Shown here: in pieces, positions 26,280 to 38,251 of the stretch
How positions within the stretch are numbered: the first letter of the stretch is position 1
Layout of the letters: each line of letters opens with the position of its first letter
NCBI GenBank assembly: GCA_024508725.1
Contig: JANINS010000003.1
Span: 868,001-932,000 of the forward strand
Length of the DNA: 64,000 nt
Source: Chitinophagaceae bacterium
GTDB lineage: Bacteria; Bacteroidota; Bacteroidia; Chitinophagales; Chitinophagaceae
Reading direction: 5' to 3'
The notes under the pieces: generated by a model
What the model saw: only the letters and a program-made list of their open reading frames with translations
The model's database searches: none
What the model was told of the DNA's origin: nothing
Made by a program: the position numbers and the translations under genes

Positions 26280-27353
26280 TTAATTCTTCTTGATCGTGTA
26301 ACTATAGTTTCCGGCAACACCGATATCGAGTGTAATGGTATAATTACCTGCAGTTGTAATGTTTAGGTTGTCTCCACCATAATCTGGTTTACCATCCGGT
26401 GCTCCATTAGAACCACCGCCATCACCAAAGTTGATTGGCCAATCATTATTCGCCCTGAACTTGAATTCACCAGCCGGCATGTTCTGCGTTATCGTCCACT
26501 CACCTGTAGCTGCATTGAATGTTAATGGAACGCTGGTAGCCCATCCATTAAAAGCACCGATGATACCCCATGTGTTGATCTTATCTGCACTCCACGTCAT
26601 ATTAACCGTGTTGGCACGAAGCAGGTACACACCAGCTCCCTGTGTTAGTTGCAAATTACTGCCACCATTTGTTAGAGTGGTTGAGCTGGAAGCTCCGTAA
26701 TCTCCAAATGCCCAGTCGTTACCTTTTACGAGCTTAAATTCAGGAGAAGGATCATTAAAGTTTATGTATCCTTCGTAATTAGTAGAAGTGTTAGCGGTAG
26801 CTGCTTTGTCAACAATCTTTGGTGCTGTTGACGGACTCCATCCCTGGAAATTTCCCGCTACCCAAAGAGCTTGGGGAAAATTGTAAACGATGATATCCTT
26901 GTAAGGAGTTACAGTAAGTGTTAATGTGTTTGAATACACCAGAAGACTATCTGTTCCGGCAGAAACTTTTACTCTTGCTTCAACAGTTGATGTGGTACTA
27001 TGAGCAACGATCTTTAAAAGCTCCTTATTGATCTCAGTAACCGTAAACGTCTTTGTTTTGTTAGCACCCATTGCTATCTCTGTAGTGGACGCTCCGGCGA
27101 AATTGGTTCCAGCTTTTGAGAGTTGCAAACTATAAGTTAATGGTGCTTTGTAGCCAAGATCTGCACTTGTCCAGTTGAATGTTACTGCCGTATTTGCAGC
27201 ATTAGCTTGCAGCAATGCTAAGGTTGTTGTAGTTGCTGAAAGCGTAGGCTTTGCATTTACAGAAACAACAACCTGGGTTTCATCTTTCTTGCAAGACCAT
27301 AAAGCTATGGCTGCAACAAAGACTGTGAGTGTTATTTTTAATATAGATTTCAT
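26280..27353 (-). CDS. SusE/SusF-like starch-binding lipoprotein
   Basis: This is a surface lipoprotein that binds starch and holds it near the SusC/SusD pore. The signal MKSILKITLTVFVAAIALWSC has its lipobox at residue 21. An Ig-like SusE domain spans about residues 25-150, followed by two carbohydrate-binding modules. The first is WVAGNFQGWSPSTAP (about 170-240) and the second GIIGAFNGWATSVPLTF (about 255-357), ending in the NYTITLDIG strand. The paired tryptophan-containing motifs fit glucan stacking. It is the last gene of the operon, 18 bases after SusD. Confidence 0.88.
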   Translation of the reverse strand: MKSILKITLTVFVAAIALWSCKKDETQVVVSVNAKPTLSATTTTLALLQANAANTAVTFNWTSADLGYKAPLTYSLQLSKAGTNFAGASTTEIAMGANKTKTFTVTEINKELLKIVAHSTTSTVEARVKVSAGTDSLLVYSNTLTLTVTPYKDIIVYNFPQALWVAGNFQGWSPSTAPKIVDKAATANTSTNYEGYINFNDPSPEFKLVKGNDWAFGDYGASSSTTLTNGGSNLQLTQGAGVYLLRANTVNMTWSADKINTWGIIGAFNGWATSVPLTFNAATGEWTITQNMPAGEFKFRANNDWPINFGDGGGSNGAPDGKPDYGGDNLNITTAGNYTITLDIGVAGNYSYTIKKN

Positions 27354-27371: not shown

Positions 27372-28961
27372 TTAATAACCCGGATTTTGAGTTAGGTTTG
27401 TATTTGCTGTGAGATCTGTAACAGGCAGTGGATACAGTTTCAGATGAGCCGGCATTGCACGTCCGTCTTTCACTCCACCTTTCCATGGCCAGAGATAAGT
27501 ACCTTCTACAAACCTGTCGAAACGGATAAGGTCTGTACGACGATGGCCTTCCCAATACAATTCTCTTGCTCTTTCATTTAGTATGAAATTAAGATCCAAC
27601 TGTGCTGCTGTGATATTACCAGATACATTTCCATACGCTCTTGTACGAAGTGCATTGATGTAACCCAAAGCTGTTGTTGCATCTCCACCTGTACCACCAC
27701 GAAGCACTGCTTCTGCATAGATCAGGTACATTTCAGGTAAACGGAAAATAGGGAAGTCAACATCTACAAAATCTCCTGAAGGATCTGAACCAGCTACACC
27801 AGCTCTTGTTACATTCCTGAATTTAGTGATCGCAAATCCATCAACAAACTTGCTAAGGTCATTGATATCAAGATTGTTTTGCTGGAACTGTGCTCTCTTA
27901 TCTGCCGTACCATTGTAATCAGGGAAGAGGTTAGGAATATTTTTCGTGGTTCTGATTCCATACCAACCACCGTTGATTCCGAAGTTAGCAGGATTCATAT
28001 TGTCTCCTACTGCGGCATGTGTAAGGAAGGTTGTTCCTCCATAGTTCTTCGTTTTCAATCCATCGTAGTTGATGGTTAAGATGAATTCGTTTGTGTTGAG
28101 ATGATTATCTGCAAGCATTAACTGGCGATAGTCAGAATGCAATGTATAACCAGCATCGATCACTTTCTTAGCATAAGTGATGGCTTCAGTATACTTTGGT
28201 GTACCGGTGTACACATTTGCATTCAGATATAATCTTGCCAATAAAGCCCAGGCAGCAGCTTTATCTGCACGTCCATATTCATTTGCTTTGGCAGCAGTTA
28301 GTTCAGCTTCGATCGCTTTCAATTCACTTTCAACATAAGTAAATAAAGCAGAACGGCTTGCCACCTGTGTTGGAGGTGTTGAACCGATTGCATTTGCTTC
28401 TGTTATAAAAGGAGGACGTCCAAAAAGATCCATAGCCACCCAATACTGGTAAGCTCTTAAGAAACGAGCTTCTGCTCTGTATTTTTTAATGTTATCAGCA
28501 TCAGCACCGGTAATCCCTCTTTCCGAGATCTTTGCATCTGTAGATTCCCTGATAAACTCGTTTGCAAGAGTGATCTGGTAAACGATCCTGTTATACAAAC
28601 CGATCAACATTGGATTGTTTGATGACCAGTTCATGTTATGGAAATCCTGGATACCCGGATCATTCCATGCAACAACTGCTTCATCTGTTGAAAGTTCCTG
28701 TGCTTTCCAGTACAAACGAAGAAAATCTGATGTTCCTTCATCAATACCTCTTACGTCACCACTACCTGCAGGTCCGTTATTACCAGTTAATGCAAAAGCT
28801 CCGTACACTTTAGCAAGTGCCTGTTTATAACCTGTAGGTGTTGAATACACTGTAGCAGATGTAACTGCATTTTGCGGCAGCCTGTCGAGGTCTTTTGTAC
28901 AACCCGTGAGGTATACCACACAAGTTGCTATCACCGCTATTTTGAAAAAATTGAATTTCAT
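27372..28961 (-). CDS. RagB/SusD family nutrient-binding lipoprotein
   Basis: SusD proteins are surface lipoproteins that cap the SusC channel and capture glycans. The 529-residue protein has a lipoprotein signal ending in CVVYLTGC, an N-terminal SusD-like part (LDRLPQNAVTSATVYSTPTGYKQALAKVYGAF), tetratricopeptide-like helices (RAEARFLRAYQYWVAMDLFGRPPFI) and the conserved ending LNFILNERARELYWEGHRRTDLIRFDRF. It sits between SusC and SusE, as in other starch loci. Confidence 0.94.
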   Translation of the reverse strand: MKFNFFKIAVIATCVVYLTGCTKDLDRLPQNAVTSATVYSTPTGYKQALAKVYGAFALTGNNGPAGSGDVRGIDEGTSDFLRLYWKAQELSTDEAVVAWNDPGIQDFHNMNWSSNNPMLIGLYNRIVYQITLANEFIRESTDAKISERGITGADADNIKKYRAEARFLRAYQYWVAMDLFGRPPFITEANAIGSTPPTQVASRSALFTYVESELKAIEAELTAAKANEYGRADKAAAWALLARLYLNANVYTGTPKYTEAITYAKKVIDAGYTLHSDYRQLMLADNHLNTNEFILTINYDGLKTKNYGGTTFLTHAAVGDNMNPANFGINGGWYGIRTTKNIPNLFPDYNGTADKRAQFQQNNLDINDLSKFVDGFAITKFRNVTRAGVAGSDPSGDFVDVDFPIFRLPEMYLIYAEAVLRGGTGGDATTALGYINALRTRAYGNVSGNITAAQLDLNFILNERARELYWEGHRRTDLIRFDRFVEGTYLWPWKGGVKDGRAMPAHLKLYPLPVTDLTANTNLTQNPGY

Positions 28962-28985: not shown

Positions 28986-31946
28986 TTAGAAGTCAAGGCT
29001 AATTCCTGCTGAATAAATTCTTGGTCTAGGATATATATTTTTATCAAGACCGCTGCTTGCTTCAGGATCTAAGCCTCTGTATTTTGTAATCACAAATACA
29101 TTCTGAACACTTGCAGAGACACGCATATTTGCTTTGTTACGCAATACTTTTCCTACATTATACCCTAAGTTAATATTATCCATTCTCAGGAAAGATGCAT
29201 TCTCTACATAATAATCAGAGAAAGACTGGTTGTTATAGAAATTTGTTTCTAAAACATTCCTTGATCCGTTTGACAGGAAGTTAGCAGGATTCAATATCTC
29301 TCTTTTAATTCCTCTTGCAGAGAAATAGTTGTTGTACAGATAATTATTGAAAGTTCCTCTCAGTACAAAACCTGCAGAGAATTTTTTGTATGTAACACCT
29401 GTGCTGATACCAAGCAGATAGTTCGGCTCTCTTGATTTATAACGGTAACGATCCTGGTCGTTGATCAATCCATCACCATTCTGATCTACATAAGCACCTT
29501 CAATAGGTTTACCATTTGCATCATATACCTGCTGGTACACATAATAAGCAAATGTGTTGTAACCAACAGAGTTGATCATGATCTTATTACCAGTTCCTCC
29601 TTCAATATCATCACCGGCAAGATTTCCTTTAAAGTTTGGATCTACCTGTTTGGTGAGATTAGTGATCTTGTTTTTATTGTAAGTGAAGTTTACATTAAGA
29701 TCCCATGTTAGGTTCTTTGTTTTAACCGGTACGGTATTTAAGGTAACCTCGATACCATTGTTCTCGATATTTCCTACGTTAGTCAACAATTCATTGCTGA
29801 AGTTTGATCCTGCAGGAACCGGTACTACGGCTAACAGATCTTTTGTTTTCTTGAAATAATAATCAATGCTACCAGATATTCTTCCTTTCAAAAACCCAAA
29901 ATCCAACCCTGCGTTTGTAGTAGTAGTTTCTTCCCATTGAAGGTTTGCATCATACGCATCAGGCCTGAACATATAGTAGAACTGGTTCCCGAACTGGTAC
30001 ATTGCAGTATTGGTACTCTGATAATAGTTAGGAATGTAGCTATAGTAATCTATACCTTCCTGTTGACCGGTAATTCCATATCCAACTCTCAGTTTCAGGT
30101 CAGAGAAAAGATTTGAATTCTTCAAGAAGCTTTCTTCTTTTATTCTCCAGGCAAAAGCTGCAGAAGGGAAAGTACCCCAACGATTGTCTTTGCTGAACTT
30201 AGAAGAACCATCACGGCGAACCGTTAAGGTTAACAGGTATTTGTTCATCAATGTATAATTCACCCTGCTGTAAAGCGAGATCAAAGTATATCTTGGATTA
30301 TCTGTTGGAAATACCGGTGTACTTCCAGGGATCAAAGTACCATTAGCTCTGTAAGATGGAAAGTTGTAGATCTTTGTAAGGAAATCCTGGTAACCATAAC
30401 CCGCGATCGCATCGATACGGCTTTTAATAGAAGGAATATCCTTTGCATAATTGAGGTAAAACTCTAACAACTTATTTTCTTTACCCTGCTTATACTCTGT
30501 TCTTTCACCACCTTGTGTGTATTTAGAAGCTGCACTATCCGGAACATAAACATTTCCTGTTCCTTCAGCAATATCATACCCCAGGTTAAGATTTGCTCTT
30601 AATTCCGGTAACCAGTGTAGTTTATAATCGAACTGAATATTACCGATGCTGCGTTGCACTGTACTCCTGTCGTCCCTGAGATTGATCAGTGCAAGCGGGT
30701 TTCTTGGAGACAAAGTATTTGGTTTATTCGTAGCAGGATCTAACCACTCAAAATATCCACCAATACGTGTTTTACCACTGTAAACGGGTTGAGTTGGATC
30801 GAATGTTACAGCGTTTCCAATAGCACCTCTGTCAGCAAAATTATTATGAGTGATACCGCCTTTTAAACTGATGTCAACCTTTAAATGATCTTTAAAGAAT
30901 TTCGGACTTGCATTGATGCTTAAAGATGTTCTGTTATAATTATCTCTCAACAAAACACCATCCTGGTTGAGGAAACCGAAAGAAACACGATACGGCATCG
31001 TTTTGAAAGAACCTGAAACACTCAGGTTATTATCCTGGCCGAAAGCAGTTCTATATACCTCATCCTGCCAATCGGTGCTTGCAAAACCTACTAATGCTTT
31101 TTGTTGTGCATTACCATAAGTGTTTACAAGATTTCTAAATTCCTGGGCAGACAAAACATCTACTTGCTTTGGATTGATAGATGCAGAAAATTGAGTACTG
31201 AAATAAATTCTTGGTTTACCTCTTACACCTTTTTTAGTAGTGATGATGATCACACCGTTTGATGCTCTTGATCCATAGATAGCTGTTGCAGAAGCATCTT
31301 TTAAAATGCTGATGCTTTCAATATCATCTGGATTGATGAGGTTTAATGGATTGGAAGAGCCTGGTAATCCACCACTGGTGATAGGCACACCATCAATAAC
31401 GATCAATGGATCGTTGCTTGCATTTAAAGAAGCACCACCACGAATTCTGATACGGCTACCTTCACCAGGTGCACCGTTGTTAGAAGTGATCTGCACACCG
31501 GCAACTTTACCGGCGATCAATTGTTCTGGAGAAGTAACCAATCCCTGCTGGAAGTCTTTCTCTGTTACTGATACAACAGATCCTGTAAGATCTTTTTTCC
31601 TTTGTGTACCATAACCGATCACCACCACTTCATTCAGGTTGGCACCAGCTCCTGCAACAAGCGAAACATTTACGGTTCCGCTACCAATTGCAACTTCTTG
31701 CGTGGTGTATCCTAATGACGAGATAACCAGCGTAGTTGCATTAGCAGGTACAGAAAGACGAAAAGATCCGTCTGCAGCTGTTTGTGCACCCCTGGTAGTT
31801 CCTTTAACCATTACAGTAACACCAATTAATGGCGTACCATCTTTTGAATCAGTTACCTTACCGGTAACCACTTTGTCCTGAGCATTTGCAAATGCCATAA
31901 ATGCTAATGGCAGGACAAAAGCCATAAACAATCGCTTGAGGTTCAT
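28986..31946 (-). CDS. SusC/RagA family TonB-linked outer membrane protein
   Basis: This is a TonB-dependent outer-membrane transporter of 986 residues for oligosaccharide import. The signal peptide (MNLKRLFMAFVLPLAFMAFA) is followed by a carboxypeptidase-like domain (VTGKVTDSKDGTPLIGVTV), the SusC box around VVIGYGTQRKKDLTGSVVSV, the plug domain with VIDGVPI and SILKDASATAIYGSRASNGVIII, and a long beta-barrel ending in phenylalanine (ISLDF). Forty-two bases separate it from the amylase gene upstream, consistent with one transcript. Confidence 0.95.
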   Translation of the reverse strand: MNLKRLFMAFVLPLAFMAFANAQDKVVTGKVTDSKDGTPLIGVTVMVKGTTRGAQTAADGSFRLSVPANATTLVISSLGYTTQEVAIGSGTVNVSLVAGAGANLNEVVVIGYGTQRKKDLTGSVVSVTEKDFQQGLVTSPEQLIAGKVAGVQITSNNGAPGEGSRIRIRGGASLNASNDPLIVIDGVPITSGGLPGSSNPLNLINPDDIESISILKDASATAIYGSRASNGVIIITTKKGVRGKPRIYFSTQFSASINPKQVDVLSAQEFRNLVNTYGNAQQKALVGFASTDWQDEVYRTAFGQDNNLSVSGSFKTMPYRVSFGFLNQDGVLLRDNYNRTSLSINASPKFFKDHLKVDISLKGGITHNNFADRGAIGNAVTFDPTQPVYSGKTRIGGYFEWLDPATNKPNTLSPRNPLALINLRDDRSTVQRSIGNIQFDYKLHWLPELRANLNLGYDIAEGTGNVYVPDSAASKYTQGGERTEYKQGKENKLLEFYLNYAKDIPSIKSRIDAIAGYGYQDFLTKIYNFPSYRANGTLIPGSTPVFPTDNPRYTLISLYSRVNYTLMNKYLLTLTVRRDGSSKFSKDNRWGTFPSAAFAWRIKEESFLKNSNLFSDLKLRVGYGITGQQEGIDYYSYIPNYYQSTNTAMYQFGNQFYYMFRPDAYDANLQWEETTTTNAGLDFGFLKGRISGSIDYYFKKTKDLLAVVPVPAGSNFSNELLTNVGNIENNGIEVTLNTVPVKTKNLTWDLNVNFTYNKNKITNLTKQVDPNFKGNLAGDDIEGGTGNKIMINSVGYNTFAYYVYQQVYDANGKPIEGAYVDQNGDGLINDQDRYRYKSREPNYLLGISTGVTYKKFSAGFVLRGTFNNYLYNNYFSARGIKREILNPANFLSNGSRNVLETNFYNNQSFSDYYVENASFLRMDNINLGYNVGKVLRNKANMRVSASVQNVFVITKYRGLDPEASSGLDKNIYPRPRIYSAGISLDF

Positions 31947-31988: not shown

Positions 31989-34900
31989 TTATTTAACGAT
32001 CTGGACCGGGTAAACTGCTGAACCTTCTTTTCCCATAAGCTTCAAGAAGTAAACTCCGTTTGCTATTCCAGTTATGTTTAGTTTTATTTCGTTTGTTACA
32101 GAGGAGATATTCCAGCTATTATACAGTTTGCCGCTGGCATCAGATAGTGAAACAGATAACACTTTGTTTCCGGGTGTTGCCAACTTTATGGAAATATGAT
32201 CTCCTTTAACAGGATTAGGATAGATCGACGCCGAAATACTTTTCAATGCATTGACTTCAACAACTTTCGAATAACTGAATCTGCCATCCTTATCAACCAT
32301 TTTTAAACGGTAATACATTTTTGATTTAGATCGAACCGCTCTGTTATCGTAATCACTTTGTGAATAAGCATTTACTCCTGTAACGTTTTTTGCATTCACT
32401 GTTCCAGCCAAACTGAATTCAGTTCCGTTAAACGAACGTTCCACTTCAAAATGACTAACGTTGTTTTCATTGGTCGTGATCCAGTTCAATTGAATGGATT
32501 CTGCAGTTCTCTTTCCTTCAAAAGACAACAGCGTTAATGGCAAAACAAAGCTGGCATCCCTATCCAGGTAAACATGATATTCTCCGGGTTGCAGTGTTAT
32601 ACTTTGAGCAAAACCTGTAGCAGTAATACTTCCACCGTTTACAAAGTCGTACCATGTTCCTGCAGACTGGAACTGAACGGTGCTGGTAACAGGGTTTACA
32701 TCGAAATTACCGATCACACAAATGTTCAATGCTCCTGATGATACCTTCAAGAACTTAAATGCACCACCTAAGGCGAATTCAATTGTACCAGTTGTAAATG
32801 CAGGTAAATACGGAGCATACTTACGTAACCTGAATAATTTGGCGTAAACATTATAAAGTGCTACCCGGTTACTGTTGTTTTTATAATCCCACTTAACCGG
32901 TTTTGGCGAAGTTCTGCAGCCATTGTTTATAGTGAATCCATCATCACATGTATTAATAGAATAATCGTAACCTAACTCACCAAACTGCCACATCATTTTC
33001 GGCCCAGGTATCATTGCCCAAAAAGCAGTTGCCATTTCGTTACGTTTTAACCCGGTGCTCAATGATCTTACATCGTAACTGCCACTTGAGTTTCCGTAAA
33101 CAATATTTTTGAACATCAATCTTTCTTCGTCATGGCTTTCCTGGTAAGTAATAAGATTAGGAACTGTCCAATTCCTATTCGTGTAAATACCATATTCGAA
33201 ATTGGAACCTGGTAAGAAACCCATAGTAGCTTCGTTGAAACTATGGTTGAGATTTCCCCATAATAACATTCCGTAGTTCGCTAATTCAATCTCTTCGTTA
33301 TTCGTTGCAAAATGTTCAAGAATGCAATAAGAATTGGGTGAAACAACCTGCATGCTGTCGTAGATGCGTTTCCAGGTAGCGATACGGCTTGCATCATACG
33401 TTGAATTAAAAGCAGCTTCTGTTGAATAGTAATTTTGTGTAAATCCTTTAGCAAGATCCCATCTAAAGCCATCGATCTTATAATTCGTTAACCAATGACG
33501 GATCACTCTGCTGACAAGATATTTTGTTGCATCAGATTCATGATTAAAATCGTACCCAACATTATACGGATGTTTTGCATCAGGATTGTGATACGGACTG
33601 TTCGCTGCAGGTTTATTATTCGCTGCATCCCAATACATACGAACAGTTGGCGATAAACCGAAAGCATGATTCATGGCTATATCCATGATCACTGCAATAC
33701 CGTTTGCATGACAAGCATCGATAAATTGTTTGAAAGCAGTTTCTGTTCCGTACATCTTATCAGGAGCGAAGAAAAAATCAGGATTATAACCCCAGCTGTT
33801 GTTGCCTTCAAACTCATTGACCGGCATCAACTCAATCGCATTTATACCAAGTCGTTTAAGATAAGTAAGAGTGTCTTTAAGTGTTTGCCAGTTCTGAGCC
33901 GATACAAAATCTCTCACTAACAATTCATAAATGATCAGGTTTCTTTTATCAGGACGATTGAAGTTGGTAACATTCCAGTTGTAAGCTGGTTTTGCTGTTT
34001 GCAATACGCTTACAATATTTGATTGTCCGGAAGGGTATGGTTTTAAAGATGGATAATTAGCAGCCGGAATGTATTGATCATTCCATGGATCAAGAATTTT
34101 TTCGCTGTAGATATCTGCAACTTTCAGATCACCATCGATCAGGTATTGAAAAGCATATTCTGTTCCTGGAGTAAGGCCGGTAAGAGTGATCCAGTAACGG
34201 TTTCCATCAGGTGTTCTGTACATCTGGTAACTACCTGTCTGTGTCCAGTTATTGAAATCGCCAATTACTGCAGCTCTTGTTTTATTGGGTGCATACAACA
34301 CGAGTGTTGCAGAAGTATTATCAGCGTGATAATTGATGCCGTCTACCGTGTTAGCAGGTTGTGCCTGTGTTACAACGGGTGTGTTTACAAACACCGTTAT
34401 CACATCAGTTACCGTTCCATTTGAATTAGTAGCTTCTATAGTGATCTGATTGTTGCCACTAACTGCATTCACCCCACCAGCAATTGAAGTGGTATTTGTA
34501 ACGGTGTACTTCACATCTCCATTTACAATGATCTTTAGATTGGCCGCTTCACTTGATGAGCCTTCTATCTGTATCAGATCTCCTGCACTTACATTCAGTG
34601 TTTCTGGGGTTGGTGTGTATTTAGGTTCTTTATATGGCCGATCTATTCTTGCAAATAATCCGGCATCATACACAGGAACATACATATCAGTTCCATCAGC
34701 GTTTGCCAGTTTCTTAGAGCCGTTTCCGCTTCTAAATAAAATAGCAATCTTTAAAATCTTTTCCGAAGGATCGCTAATACCGAAAAATGTTCTCAGATCA
34801 GAACTGATGGTAAACTTCCATTTATTGGTAGAAATATAAGCTGCCTGAGCTGCAGCATTGGTTGTTCCCCATCCAAACGGTACATATTTCCAGTTAGAAG

Positions 34901-35126
34901 GTCCGGTACTGTAATTTGTGATCACACCTATATGAACATAAACATCAGAAGCGGTATGATTCAGTAAACCCTGGTTTCCTTTAGTGGCATCGGCAGTAAT
35001 CTCAATTGTTCCGGAAGACTCAGTTATAAATGAAGGTGACCAGCTTAATAGTTGTGCTTTTACTGATGAAGAGATCATCAATACAGCAAGCAACATTAAT
35101 GAGACATTAAGTAGCCTTTTTATCAT
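31989..35126 (-). CDS. Secreted GH13 alpha-amylase with type IX sorting domain
   Basis: This 1045-residue enzyme hydrolyses alpha-glucans. Its parts in order are a signal peptide (MIKRLLNVSLMLLAVLMISS), an N-terminal beta domain, a bacterial Ig-like stretch, a CBM48-like module (AAVIGDFNNWTQTGSYQM), the GH13 barrel, a C-terminal beta domain, a linker domain (HFEVERSFNGTEFSLAG) and a type A sorting domain (ASIYPNPVKGDHISI ... YPVQIVK). Catalytic residues are the aspartate in IDGFRWDLAKG, the glutamate in YCILEHFA and the aspartate in ESHDEERL. I start at 35126; the frame runs to 35183, but that would include an operator. It is the first gene of the sus-like operon. Confidence 0.93.
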   Translation of the reverse strand: MIKRLLNVSLMLLAVLMISSSVKAQLLSWSPSFITESSGTIEITADATKGNQGLLNHTASDVYVHIGVITNYSTGPSNWKYVPFGWGTTNAAAQAAYISTNKWKFTISSDLRTFFGISDPSEKILKIAILFRSGNGSKKLANADGTDMYVPVYDAGLFARIDRPYKEPKYTPTPETLNVSAGDLIQIEGSSSEAANLKIIVNGDVKYTVTNTTSIAGGVNAVSGNNQITIEATNSNGTVTDVITVFVNTPVVTQAQPANTVDGINYHADNTSATLVLYAPNKTRAAVIGDFNNWTQTGSYQMYRTPDGNRYWITLTGLTPGTEYAFQYLIDGDLKVADIYSEKILDPWNDQYIPAANYPSLKPYPSGQSNIVSVLQTAKPAYNWNVTNFNRPDKRNLIIYELLVRDFVSAQNWQTLKDTLTYLKRLGINAIELMPVNEFEGNNSWGYNPDFFFAPDKMYGTETAFKQFIDACHANGIAVIMDIAMNHAFGLSPTVRMYWDAANNKPAANSPYHNPDAKHPYNVGYDFNHESDATKYLVSRVIRHWLTNYKIDGFRWDLAKGFTQNYYSTEAAFNSTYDASRIATWKRIYDSMQVVSPNSYCILEHFATNNEEIELANYGMLLWGNLNHSFNEATMGFLPGSNFEYGIYTNRNWTVPNLITYQESHDEERLMFKNIVYGNSSGSYDVRSLSTGLKRNEMATAFWAMIPGPKMMWQFGELGYDYSINTCDDGFTINNGCRTSPKPVKWDYKNNSNRVALYNVYAKLFRLRKYAPYLPAFTTGTIEFALGGAFKFLKVSSGALNICVIGNFDVNPVTSTVQFQSAGTWYDFVNGGSITATGFAQSITLQPGEYHVYLDRDASFVLPLTLLSFEGKRTAESIQLNWITTNENNVSHFEVERSFNGTEFSLAGTVNAKNVTGVNAYSQSDYDNRAVRSKSKMYYRLKMVDKDGRFSYSKVVEVNALKSISASIYPNPVKGDHISIKLATPGNKVLSVSLSDASGKLYNSWNISSVTNEIKLNITGIANGVYFLKLMGKEGSAVYPVQIVK

Positions 35127-35143
35127 AGCAGCAATCGAGTAAA

Positions 35144-35158
35144 GTGTAAAAAATACAC
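35144..35158. promoter_or_regulatory. Operator-like palindrome GTGTA-N5-TACAC, proximal site
   Basis: GTGTAAAAAATACAC is a perfect five-base inverted repeat with a five-base spacer, 18 bases upstream of the amylase ATG. It shares the layout of the sites at 35168 and 36072 and is a candidate binding site for the adjacent NUDIX-type regulator. Confidence 0.6.
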
Positions 35159-35167
35159 AATCGTTAA

Positions 35168-35184
35168 TGTGTAAATCGTACACA
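35168..35184. promoter_or_regulatory. Operator-like palindrome TGTGTA-N5-TACACA, distal site
   Basis: TGTGTAAATCGTACACA has perfect six-base arms. Its centre is 25 bases from that of the proximal site. It lies in the 123-base gap between the regulator and the amylase. Confidence 0.65.
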
Positions 35185-35249
35185 ATTTAGGAAGTTTCTG
35201 GATTTTCCAAAAAAATGTTAAGGGAATAATTAAAATTTAAGGCTTGTGC

Positions 35250-36002
35250 TTACCCAAAATCGATCCCGATCCACTTTCGTTTGTTCTTTTCGTACTTCTC
35301 GAAATTGAAACGATATAGCTTTCCCGGACGATGGGGTACGTCTTGTTCGTACTCGCCGATATCTTCTAAAAAGTCCATAGAGAAGAACTTTTTCCTGAAA
35401 TTTCTTCGATCGAGGTTTACGCCAAGAATGGCTTCATAAAGGTTTTGCAGCTCCCGAAGCGAGAATTTGTCGGGCAATAAGTTGAATCCAAGTGGATGTT
35501 CCTGGATACGCTTCTGCAACCACGAATAGCAAACATCCAGTATCTCTTTATGGTCGAATGCCATGTCTTTGATAGAATTTACTGAATGCCAATGCAGCTC
35601 ATTATCGGTTGATTGCAATTTGTGGTGCTGTATATTAAGCAATGAACAATAAGCGATAGTAATTACTCGTCCGCCAGGGTGGCGATTGGGTTTGCTGAAA
35701 GCCCTCACCTGCTCAAGATACACATCGTTCATACCGGTTCTCTCTGCCAAAACCCGGTAGGCTGCATCGTCGAGTTCTTCATTATCGTCTGCAAAATCTC
35801 CTAATAACGACCATTTATCTTTATAGAATTCAAGATCCGATCGGATGAGCAGCACTTTCAGTTCATTTTCTTCAAAACCAAATATCACACAGTCAACAGT
35901 AATGGGTACTCGTGGGTAGCTTGCAACAAGCTTATTTACATCTTTAATTAAACCTCCATTCTCGTTACGGTAAGCAGTTATCACGGCAGGTTCCTTCTTC
36001 AT
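35250..36002 (-). CDS. NUDIX-domain transcriptional regulator (NrtR/AraR-like)
   Basis: This 250-residue protein joins an N-terminal NUDIX fold (about 35-165) to a C-terminal winged-helix-like domain (about 170-245: FSLRELQNLYEAILGVNLDR and NFRKKFFSMDFLEDIGE). The NUDIX box is degenerate: where hydrolases have REUxEE this protein reads RVLAER, so two metal-binding glutamates are missing. This suits the NrtR/AraR type of regulator, in which the domain senses a ligand rather than hydrolysing one. It lies directly upstream of the starch operon, with matching palindromes before that operon and before itself, so it is probably its regulator. Confidence 0.85.
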   Translation of the reverse strand: MKKEPAVITAYRNENGGLIKDVNKLVASYPRVPITVDCVIFGFEENELKVLLIRSDLEFYKDKWSLLGDFADDNEELDDAAYRVLAERTGMNDVYLEQVRAFSKPNRHPGGRVITIAYCSLLNIQHHKLQSTDNELHWHSVNSIKDMAFDHKEILDVCYSWLQKRIQEHPLGFNLLPDKFSLRELQNLYEAILGVNLDRRNFRKKFFSMDFLEDIGEYEQDVPHRPGKLYRFNFEKYEKNKRKWIGIDFG

Positions 36003-36071
36003 AAATATTACCAGGGGTTGTTCAAAAGCAATCGTAGCAATCAGCCTACAAGGTAAACATTTTTACCAAAT

Positions 36072-36086
36072 GTGTACATTTTACAC
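36072..36086. promoter_or_regulatory. Operator-like palindrome GTGTA-N5-TACAC before the regulator gene
   Basis: GTGTACATTTTACAC is a third perfect copy of the palindrome, 70 bases upstream of the regulator ATG and 57 bases upstream of ligA. It suggests autoregulation; an effect on ligA is possible but less likely. Confidence 0.6.
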
Positions 36087-36142
36087 CATGCATTCAGCTC
36101 CTGAAGGCTTTCCGCTTAATTTTAGCACTTCGAAAAATTGAT

Positions 36143-38251
36143 ATGTACAACGGCAACCAGGTAAAGCAACTACAACAGCATACAGAAGAGCTGATCGTAT
36201 TTCAGAAACATGATGAAGATGCGAAAGACAATATTGATATTCTGAAAAATGTATTGCGATTTCATGAATACAGGTACTATGTGATGAATGATCCCCTGCT
36301 CACTGATTTTGAGTATGATCAATTATACAAACTGCTCGAAAACACAGAGAAATTACATCCTGAACTCGTTACGAAAGATTCTCCTACTCAACGTGTAGGT
36401 AGCAGCCTTAATCAATCTTTCCCTACTGTACAGCATTTAGTTCCGATGTTGAGCCTGGAGAATAGTTATAATGAAGATGATTTGATCGACTGGGATCGTA
36501 AAGCAAGAGAACTTACAGGATTAACCGAAGTAGAATATTGTATTGAGCCAAAGTTCGACGGAGCAAGTATTTCATTGATATACGAGGATGATGTTTTTAC
36601 ACGTGGTGCAACAAGAGGTGATGGCGTTCATGGTGAAGATGTAACCAACAACATGAAGCAGATAAGGTCTATTCCGTTAACTGCAAAGTTTTCAGAATAT
36701 GGTATTCAGCAGATAGAAATAAGAGGTGAAGTGATGATGAGTAAAGCATCGTTCAAACATTACAACGATATGCTGGCTGAACAAAACCTTCCACCACTGG
36801 CGAATCCCAGAAACGCAGCCTCGGGAAGTTTGAGAATAAAAGATCCAAAAGAAGTTGCGAGAAGAAGACTCGAAGCTTTTTTATACAATATCAGCTACTA
36901 CCATCTTGAAACAGACGATAAATTTCCGAAGGAATTAATGAGCCATAGTGGTTGTTTAGAACTATTATGGAATTGCGGATTCAGAAGTCCGCAAAAAGAG
37001 AAAGTAGTAGTAAAAGGAATCGATGCTGTGATCAAACATTGCCACGAATACGAATTGAAACGTGATGATCTTCCATATGAGATAGATGGTATGGTGATCA
37101 AAGTGAATAACGTTGAATTGCAGGAGATCATGGGAATGACAACGCATCATCCACGTTGGGCAATGGCATTCAAGTTCAAAGCAAGACAGGCAAGCAGTAA
37201 ATTAAGAGCTGTAGAATTCCAGGTAGGTAGAACAGGAGCCATAACACCAGTTGCTAAAATTGATCCGGTGCCGATCGGTGGTGTAACTGTTGGATCAATT
37301 TCGTTATTCAACGAAGATGTGATCAAAGAAAAAGACCTGATGATCGGTGATACCGTTTTAGTTGAACGAGCAGGTGATGTGATTCCATACATCGTTCGTT
37401 CCAATGCAGAACTAAGAACAGGAAGTGAACAACCAATTTCATTCCCGAAACATTGCCCGGTTTGCGAGAGTAAGTTGATGAAAGAAGAAGGTGAAGCCGT
37501 TTGGAGATGTGTGAATATCGAATGTCCCGCACAGGTGGTAGAAAGAATGATCCATTTTGTAAGTAAAGATGCGATGGATATTAAAAGCTTTGGTGAAGCC
37601 AATGTTAGAAAATTCTATGAGAAAGGATGGCTGAAAGATATTCCGGGCATTTATAATTTACCCTTTGAAGAAATCGGTAAACTCGAAGGCTTCGGGCAAA
37701 AAAGTATCGATAAATTAAAAGACGCTATCGAAGCATCCAAACAACAACCTTTAAATCGTTTGATCTTTGCATTAGGTATTCGCTATGTTGGCGAGACCAC
37801 TGCAAAAACACTGGCTAATGCAGTGCATCATCTTTTAGATTTTGCATCAATGAGTGAAGAGCAATTACAGCAAATGGAAGATGTAGGTGTAAAAGTTGCC
37901 AACAGCATTCATCTTTTCTTTAGTAATGAACAAAACATTCAAATGCTGAAACAGCTGGAGCAGCTTGGATTGAAGATGACGAACGAAAAGAAATCATCTT
38001 CAACTGATAACACTTTACACGGACAAACTTTTCTCTTCACCGGAACCATGAACAAACTAAAACGCAGCGAAGCAGAAGCCATGGTAGAAGAACATGGAGG
38101 AAAACTGCTGAGTGGCGTCAGCAGCAAATTGAATTACCTCGTGGTTGGTGAAGATGCAGGAAGCAAGCTGGAGAAAGCAAAAAAGATCAATACGATAAGG
38201 ATCATTAGTGAAGATGAATTTCTAATGCTAATAGATTCGAATTACAACTAA
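36143..38251 (+). CDS. ligA: NAD-dependent DNA ligase LigA
   Basis: LigA seals nicks in DNA using NAD in replication and repair. The 702-residue protein has the NAD-binding Ia domain (HEYRYYVMNDPLLTDFEYDQLY), the adenylation domain with nucleophile lysine 137 in EPKFDGASI, an OB-fold, a four-cysteine zinc finger (CPVCESKL ... CVNIECPAQ), helix-hairpin-helix repeats (KLEGFGQKSIDKLKDAI) and a C-terminal BRCT domain (GQTFLFTGTMNKLKRSEAEA). It carries about 25 extra N-terminal residues compared with many bacterial ligases. It is transcribed divergently from the regulator gene. Confidence 0.97.
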   Translation: MYNGNQVKQLQQHTEELIVFQKHDEDAKDNIDILKNVLRFHEYRYYVMNDPLLTDFEYDQLYKLLENTEKLHPELVTKDSPTQRVGSSLNQSFPTVQHLVPMLSLENSYNEDDLIDWDRKARELTGLTEVEYCIEPKFDGASISLIYEDDVFTRGATRGDGVHGEDVTNNMKQIRSIPLTAKFSEYGIQQIEIRGEVMMSKASFKHYNDMLAEQNLPPLANPRNAASGSLRIKDPKEVARRRLEAFLYNISYYHLETDDKFPKELMSHSGCLELLWNCGFRSPQKEKVVVKGIDAVIKHCHEYELKRDDLPYEIDGMVIKVNNVELQEIMGMTTHHPRWAMAFKFKARQASSKLRAVEFQVGRTGAITPVAKIDPVPIGGVTVGSISLFNEDVIKEKDLMIGDTVLVERAGDVIPYIVRSNAELRTGSEQPISFPKHCPVCESKLMKEEGEAVWRCVNIECPAQVVERMIHFVSKDAMDIKSFGEANVRKFYEKGWLKDIPGIYNLPFEEIGKLEGFGQKSIDKLKDAIEASKQQPLNRLIFALGIRYVGETTAKTLANAVHHLLDFASMSEEQLQQMEDVGVKVANSIHLFFSNEQNIQMLKQLEQLGLKMTNEKKSSSTDNTLHGQTFLFTGTMNKLKRSEAEAMVEEHGGKLLSGVSSKLNYLVVGEDAGSKLEKAKKINTIRIISEDEFLMLIDSNYN

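Follow-up and report, generated by a model that had tools for sequence, protein, structure and literature searches.

The window, by which we mean the whole 64-kb stretch of DNA analysed here, carries on its minus strand a group of genes that, in the order of transcription, encode a regulator, a GH13 amylase, SusC, SusD and a SusE-like protein (Table 1). The amylase gene (ATG at 35126) is presumed to be the first gene of the target operon, which would run on through susC and susD to the SusE-like gene, and the regulator gene (ATG at 36002) is divergent from ligA, whose ATG is at 36143.

Table 1. Genes and predicted operators of the locus, with positions counted within the window.
Feature	Position	Strand	Basis
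NrtR-family regulator, inactive Nudix sensor domain and winged helix, 250 aa	35250..36002	-	Pfam, PDB match, AlphaFold model
GH13 alpha-amylase with CBM48 and type IX secretion tail	31989..35126	-	Pfam Alpha-amylase, CBM_48, Por_Secre_tail
SusC-type TonB-dependent transporter	28986..31946	-	TIGR04056, 776.6 bits
SusD-type starch-binding lipoprotein	27372..28961	-	Pfam SusD_RagB; NF033071 SusD 1.6e-127, under its cut-off
SusE-like outer membrane glucan-binding protein	26280..27353	-	Pfam SusE 2.8e-20
Operator 1, GTGTAAATCGTACAC, predicted; distal site of the tandem pair upstream of the amylase	35169..35183	.	Exact motif match
Operator 2, GTGTAAAAAATACAC, predicted; 17 nt upstream of the amylase ATG	35144..35158	.	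Exact motif match
Operator 3, GTGTACATTTTACAC, predicted; regulator-ligA divergent gap	36072..36086	.	Exact motif match

Only three exact matches to the dyad GTGTA-N5-TACAC occur in the window and all of them fall within 1 kb, against a chance expectation of 0.02 per window and a maximum of one (100 dinucleotide shuffles of the 64 kb). Two form a tandem pair, separated from the amylase ATG by 17 and 42 nt and with starts 25 bp apart, and the third lies 69 nt before the ATG of the regulator and 56 nt before that of the divergent ligA, a position from which autoregulation of the regulator gene is possible. An earlier note on this DNA had reported three perfect palindromes here. All three are real, with 35144 and 36072 correctly placed, but the remaining one starts at 35169 rather than 35168, and whilst the GTGTA and TACAC arms are exact in every case, the palindromy is confined to these five-base arms and does not extend into the N5 spacers.

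By its sequence and fold features the window protein is a member of the NrtR family, and since it belongs to this family the type of regulator is already known (PMC4666351). Pfam assigns it NUDIX, NrtR_WHD (1.1e-26) and AraR_C (5.3e-12) domains, all above cut-off, which confirms the winged-helix-like C-terminus that had been noted earlier, and in both the Pfam assignment and the AlphaFold model its 250 residues are fully covered by the Nudix domain and the winged helix. The best sequence match in the PDB is BtAraR (5bs6, E 9.3e-55). The model, built with 27 sequences (pLDDT 84.6, pTM 0.80), has AraR as its closest PDB fold and NrtR as its second closest, with a TM-score of 0.78-0.81 to 5bs6; sequence identity is 41% to BtAraR and 29% to SoNrtR, the NrtR of Shewanella oneidensis. 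Within the Nudix box, GX5EX7REUXEEXGU, the glycine has become D69, RE reads R83-V84 and EE reads E87-R88, so that the intact REUXEE is replaced by RVLAER, exactly as the earlier note had read it, and Arg88 is invariant in all 100 orthologues read. The same note had taken the protein for a sensor and not a hydrolase. The box has lost the glycine and two glutamates (D69, V84, R88), and the window protein is very probably a sensor-regulator and not an enzyme; loss of Nudix glutamates is among the features that PMC4666351 describes for NrtR and AraR sensors.

The nearest named relatives by regulator gene are Chitinophagaceae. We placed the protein in a quick tree of 70 rows, including 16 of the 80 close orthologues, in which long branches were flagged. 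There it forms one clade with its close and distant family orthologues (SH-aLRT 100), and BtAraR, itself flagged as a long branch, forms a separate clade with 21 relatives (SH-aLRT 100). The NAD-type NrtR profile NF050029 scores 138.7 on the regulator against a cut-off of 400. On the sequence evidence of clade and pocket, the regulator clade is distinct from AraR and is neither AraR nor NAD-type.

To describe the pocket we used BtAraR numbering, with the ligand- and DNA-contact residues as given for BtAraR in PMC4666351 and with counts taken over 80 close and 20 distant orthologues. Arg86, Phe129 and His131 are retained in all 100, and the regulator has thereby two of the BtAraR arabinose contacts, Arg86 and His131. 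The third, Arg34, which is described as contacting O4 of arabinose (PMC4666351), is Ser in all 80 close and 18 of the 20 distant orthologues and Cys in the other two distant ones, and the positions of Gly48 and Leu67 are occupied by Asp and Arg, respectively, in 100 of 100. The Leu67 position is that of SoNrtR Lys76, a phosphate contact, and a phosphorylated sugar is therefore a possible effector. One might equally look to ADP-ribose or another nucleotide as the effector, with a regulon that tracks NAD or energy state and not glucans, given that the residue at the Lys76 position, where SoNrtR contacts the ADP alpha-phosphate, is the invariant Arg88 and that pfkA, a candidate target considered below, is energy-linked. 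The ADP-ribose contacts of SoNrtR (Arg41, Asn43, Lys76 and Arg98) are, however, Ser, Leu, Arg and Gly in the window protein, and ADP-ribose is an unlikely ligand because the first, second and last of these have been replaced. Moreover, the candidate regulon consists of alpha-glucan genes and pfkA. We therefore hold a nucleotide effector to be highly improbable and prefer a sugar or sugar phosphate.

Of the DNA contacts of AraR, the main ones are kept. Every one of the 80 close and 20 distant orthologues has the same residues Arg180, Asn181, Lys184 and Arg205, and so does the window protein; of the two remaining positions Lys179 is Arg in 98 orthologues and Lys in two, and Lys204 is His in all 100; the window protein itself has Arg and His at these places. 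The DNA in the BtAraR crystal includes GTGTTACTTTTACAC, a single mismatch from GTGTA-N5-TACAC, and the contacts in that structure are described as defining GTGT (PMC4666351).

Conservation of the sites was examined first around the regulator gene in named relatives (80 loci, of which L082, under 150 bp, was dropped), where the amylase adjoins the regulator in 29 of 80. In related genomes, where the earlier note had proposed looking for the palindrome, a perfect site lies within 300 bp after the regulator in 26 of the 29 loci with an adjacent amylase and in none of the 50 without. Allowing one mismatch within the same distance raises the former to 28 of 29, the last locus having a perfect site at 346 bp, and gives a site after the regulator in two of the 50. 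Upstream of the regulator, sites with at most one mismatch are present in 20 of the 29 amylase-adjacent loci (none perfect) and in 16 of the 50 others (5 perfect).

Across the family, 141 amylase places were listed; at 130 of them we examined the preceding 350 bp, and we classed the genomes by the score of their best regulator (strong, at least 400 bits; 340-400; 230-340; no orthologue). Of the 46 places with a strong orthologue, 45 have a site before the amylase when one mismatch is allowed, and in 39 the site is perfect; six control dyads at the same 46 promoters average 0.83 on the same terms. The proportion is 7 of 10 (1 perfect) for regulators of 340-400 bits, 18 of 53 (6 perfect) for those of 230-340 bits, and 3 of 21 (2 perfect, 1 with one mismatch) where there is no orthologue. 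The Nudix regulator and the palindromes, which the earlier note had connected, are thus tied together by comparison between genomes, and sites kept in genomes that lack the regulator, which it had named as evidence against the connection, are confined to those last 3 of 21 places, an outcome that speaks for the connection. Could such sites be chance or structural sequence that no regulator reads? They lie in AT-rich intergenic DNA, and in the whole genome the motif has 8 perfect matches and the reversed pattern still has 4, in statistics that rest on pattern searches. Three sites lying in a single kilobase, where 0.02 would be expected in 64 kb, and 39 perfect matches in the 46 amylase promoters against an average of 0.17 for the control dyads, nevertheless make this scarcely credible.

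The exceptions and the structure of the sample deserve some care. G205 and G189, the two genomes with perfect sites and no orthologue, are draft assemblies (290 and 730 contigs, respectively), and other members of their genera do have the regulator gene. With completeness ratings of 98 and 99%, however, they may truly have lost the regulator and kept the sites. Counted by genus, the site is present in 23 of 24 with a strong orthologue and in 3 of 12 without, or, with the two genera of these drafts set aside, in 23 of 24 and 1 of 10 (Fisher 1.8e-6, a value that ignores shared ancestry; the association counts are not independent because the genomes share ancestry). G231 has an amylase 63% identical to that of the window, only a distant NrtR relative and no site before the amylase. 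In 33 strong-orthologue genomes the best regulator copy lies over roughly 2 kb from the amylase or else on a different contig, and the site is found in 32 of these, and after removal of G145 and G065, which have a second regulator copy beside the amylase, in 30 of 31, although different contigs in draft genomes can hide adjacency; adjacency therefore does not explain the association. Eleven places stood outside the main count: eight that start only well within the protein, a fragment from a short contig, the second copy of G078, and G226. In seven of the eleven, a one-mismatch site was present at the G078 second copy, which has a strong orthologue (1 of 1), and no site was found before the amylase in G116 and G222 (no orthologue; 0 of 2) or in G030, G124, G152 and G226 (230-340 bits; 0 of 4, the start in G226 being uncertain); the amylase places of G023 and G153, the second piece of G152 and the third of G075 were left out altogether. 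In G234, which has no regulator match, no site lies upstream of the amylase, and there is one perfect site inside the gene and another about 0.6 kb past its end. Comparative genomics supports a link between the regulator and GTGTA-N5-TACAC, and the three sites of the window are very probably operators of the window protein.

Some more distant loci show variation in the motif. The amylase promoters of L193, L185, L186, L207 and L229, whose regulators score 260-270 bits, have an asymmetric GTGTA-N5-TACAT, and distant orthologues may read a shifted motif. In L460, from another family of the same order, an NrtR relative with Cys, Met, Asp and Cys at the pocket positions adjoins a GH13A-like gene (35% identity) without a GTGTA-N5-TACAC site; this is possibly a further variant with another motif.

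The same genome contains a second NrtR gene (C4:153771), which has an intact Nudix box and adjoins an NMN adenylyltransferase-like gene, and one has to consider whether the palindromes are operators of this NAD-type paralogue, with the window gene as a bystander. The paralogue has the same recognition-helix core, DRRNF, and in two loci of other families (L326 and L333) relatives with an intact Nudix box have GTGTAAAAATTACAC adjoining. Against this, the gap at the paralogue's own locus carries different palindromes, GCGTA-ATTAA-TACGC and GCGTA-AAAAA-TACGC, arranged in tandem at 1372 and 1423 of L010 (L010:1372-1437), and on the strength of this GCGTA-N5-TACGC pattern we rejected the paralogue as the binder of the window sites. 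In addition, 18 genomes have an amylase place and no orthologue of the window regulator (the two drafts excluded), ten of which retain a weaker NrtR relative, and of these ten only G095 has a site before the amylase, with one mismatch. Control by the paralogue thus seems quite unlikely, and the window protein is the better candidate. The apparent half-site of the NAD-type paralogue is one base off that of the window regulator, and given the GCGTA-N5-TACGC sites at its locus the two paralogues appear to read different half-sites.

A second kind of regulator may share these promoters. Near the GTGTA sites, GCAANCGNTTGC, which we take to resemble a LacI-family operator, is found in 10 of the 46 amylase promoters of strong-orthologue genomes against 0.02 in shuffles, with examples among relatives in L190, L205, L208 and L197, and CGATTGC half-sites lie before the amylase (35131) and the regulator (36028) of the window and before the MFS gene described below. 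LacI control was rejected as the whole story: with GCAANCGNTTGC in only these 10 of 46 promoters, a LacI-type regulator would be at most a co-regulator.

Six of the eight perfect sites in the genome precede alpha-glucan genes, pfkA or the regulator, and the other two, which are inside ORFs, are probably background. Three of these six are outside the window. One lies 26 nt ahead of an MFS sugar transporter gene, which has a cyclomaltodextrinase-type GH13 gene and a glgB-like gene after it on that strand; a second is 5 nt from the GH31 gene that it precedes; and the third lies 49 nt ahead of the 6-phosphofructokinase gene, pfkA, and 36 nt ahead of a divergent gene. No NAD gene is among the ORFs listed beside any of the eight. 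Allowing one mismatch genome-wide gives 148 places against 111 for the control, and such a scan is therefore too noisy to name further members of the regulon.

We followed the MFS and PFK genes in samples of 50 rows each, drawn from 153 and 222 genomes with a match, respectively, and made up of the 30 best-scoring loci and 20 chosen to balance regulator presence and absence. Within the MFS sample, sites with at most one mismatch occur in 19 of 20 strong-orthologue genomes, in 3 of 5 and 12 of 16 of the two weaker classes and in 1 of 9 without an orthologue; they are mostly imperfect (5, 0, 3 and 0 perfect). The corresponding figures in the PFK sample are 16 of 26, 2 of 2, 1 of 6 and 0 of 16 (12, 1, 0 and 0 perfect), so the site is missing in 10 of 26 strong-orthologue genomes. 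For GH31 (30 loci of 32 genomes with a match) a site is present in 4 of the 8 genomes with a strong orthologue, in 3 of the 14 with a weaker one and in 1 of the 8 with none. Taken from the distribution of these sites, the MFS transporter operon and pfkA are likely further targets of the regulator, and the GH31 gene is weakly supported as a conserved one. The regulon drawn in the earlier note, that of the starch locus, is apparently incomplete, since the MFS operon, pfkA and perhaps GH31 seem to belong to it as well.

Several other placements of the motif were seen. A gene near the regulator of G141 that is susC-like by eye has two sites in front of it, and another gene of this look in G047 has one. 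A perfect site in G047 (L293) also stands upstream of two divergent genes: one, at 216 nt, for citrate synthase, and the other, at 281 nt, for a secreted protein that is SusE/F-like by eye. In a different family of the same class (f3), an NrtR relative is divergent from pfkA in six genomes (L330, L471, L472, L474, L475 and L476) with a site between the two genes, perfect in two and with one mismatch in four.

Considering the evidence as a whole, we judge it quite probable that the best explanation is an NrtR-family repressor of the starch genes and pfkA that is released by a sugar or sugar phosphate. The protein would be a cytoplasmic transcription factor, presumably homodimeric, from a clade distinct from AraR, in which the Nudix domain would have given up nucleotide hydrolysis and serve as a small-molecule pocket. 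Without ligand, its winged helices would bind GTGTA-N5-TACAC and repress the amylase-susCDE operon, along with the MFS-GH13-glgB operon and pfkA, with the GH31 enzyme gene and the regulator's own gene as weaker candidate targets. When breakdown products of alpha-glucans arrive in the cytoplasm, the pocket would take up a hexose or its phosphate, and the winged helices would rotate in the way that arabinose brings about in BtAraR, so that the operators would be freed. The outcome would be a coupling of alpha-glucan uptake to glycolysis.

The sign of this control merits separate consideration. Sites in the window's own genome start 19-63 nt before the start codons of the amylase, MFS, GH31 and pfkA genes, and TTTG follows within 14 nt of the first operator in 34 of 45 strong-orthologue promoters, where 6.6 would be expected from the same promoters. 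The -7 box of Bacteroidetes promoters is TAnnTTTG, and the first site therefore seems to overlap the promoter. An activator in the manner of SusR, the known regulator of starch use, which PMC3878776 describes as an activator, would sit more easily with the sites found far upstream, as in G145 and G107, where they are 193 and 151 nt, respectively, from the start of the amylase gene. Such activation appears unlikely in view of the promoter-proximal positions in the own genome, the likely-looking overlap with the promoter, and the behaviour of the solved relative BtAraR, which is reported to bind DNA without ligand and to release it with ligand (PMC4666351). Because the sites are near or over the promoter, the relative binds DNA without ligand and the tandem spacing is AraR-like, we favour a repressor over an activator, a choice that draws on site position and analogy.

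Comparison with known systems helps to place the regulator. With BtAraR (BT0354), the L-arabinose regulator of Bacteroides (PDB 5bs6/5dd4/5ddg/5deq; described in PMC4666351), it has in common the domain architecture, the fold, the main DNA-contact residues and a near-identical operator geometry. The tandem spacing is also alike, the 21-bp BtAraR sites being given as 3 bp apart in PMC4666351 and the sites here being 25 bp apart from start to start, and both regulons, that of the window regulator as a candidate, include SusCD loci. The window regulator differs in belonging to a separate clade, in having Ser, Asp and Arg in place of the pocket residues Arg34, Gly48 and Leu67, and in a candidate regulon of alpha-glucan genes and pfkA rather than arabinose genes. 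It is also built like the NrtR of NAD metabolism (Shewanella oneidensis, PDB 3gz5/3gz6/3gz8), from a Nudix sensor and a winged helix, but the ADP-ribose contacts are mostly lost and the perfect sites in its genome are without NAD genes. XylR (BT0791) of Bacteroides, compared here by description only, likewise belongs to the sugar branch of the NrtR family in Bacteroidetes and is assigned to xylose genes; AraR and XylR are the two NrtR-family sugar regulators that the literature, as far as we consulted it, names. SusR (BT3705) controls a starch locus, the role for which the window regulator is a candidate. SusR, however, is a membrane-spanning activator with a periplasmic sensor and a C-terminal DNA-binding domain, an architecture that the window protein does not have, and its predicted sites are described as direct repeats with a long spacer (PMC3878776).

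The earlier note had suggested that control of a starch locus by a cytoplasmic Nudix regulator would be a different way of sensing glucan breakdown products. The AraR branch of the NrtR family has already been assigned SusCD loci in Bacteroides, with supporting expression data, in PMC4666351, and as a new principle for sugar loci of Bacteroidetes the suggestion is not supported in that form. Going by titles and abstract openings, our literature search turned up no paper that connects starch, maltose or phosphofructokinase with a regulator of NrtR or Nudix type; an earlier prediction in RegPrecise or in supplementary material is possible, and NrtR and phosphofructokinase both occur in PMC8965627. 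The window protein appears to be a regulator of familiar type whose apparent role, the control of starch genes together with a key enzyme of glycolysis, we have not found described.

SusR is the textbook model for starch use, and the present work offers a concrete candidate regulator of this process for a large family of Bacteroidota. It would extend the sugar branch of NrtR from pentoses to alpha-glucans and a central glycolytic enzyme; the pocket residues make the question of the effector directly testable, and the operator motif can aid regulon annotation across the Chitinophagaceae. More tentatively, and as a proposal that may well prove wrong, this NrtR clade could have come to regulate the flux through alpha-glucan use and glycolysis in the Chitinophagaceae, as a repressor with a Ser-Asp-Arg pocket that senses a hexose phosphate; the capture of starch, the import of sugar and the phosphofructokinase step would then increase in concert. 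NrtR relatives stand beside pfkA in another family, and Nudix-fold control of the phosphofructokinase step may therefore be old. If this were true, the regulator would have a role comparable to that of Cra or MalT, achieved by unrelated means.
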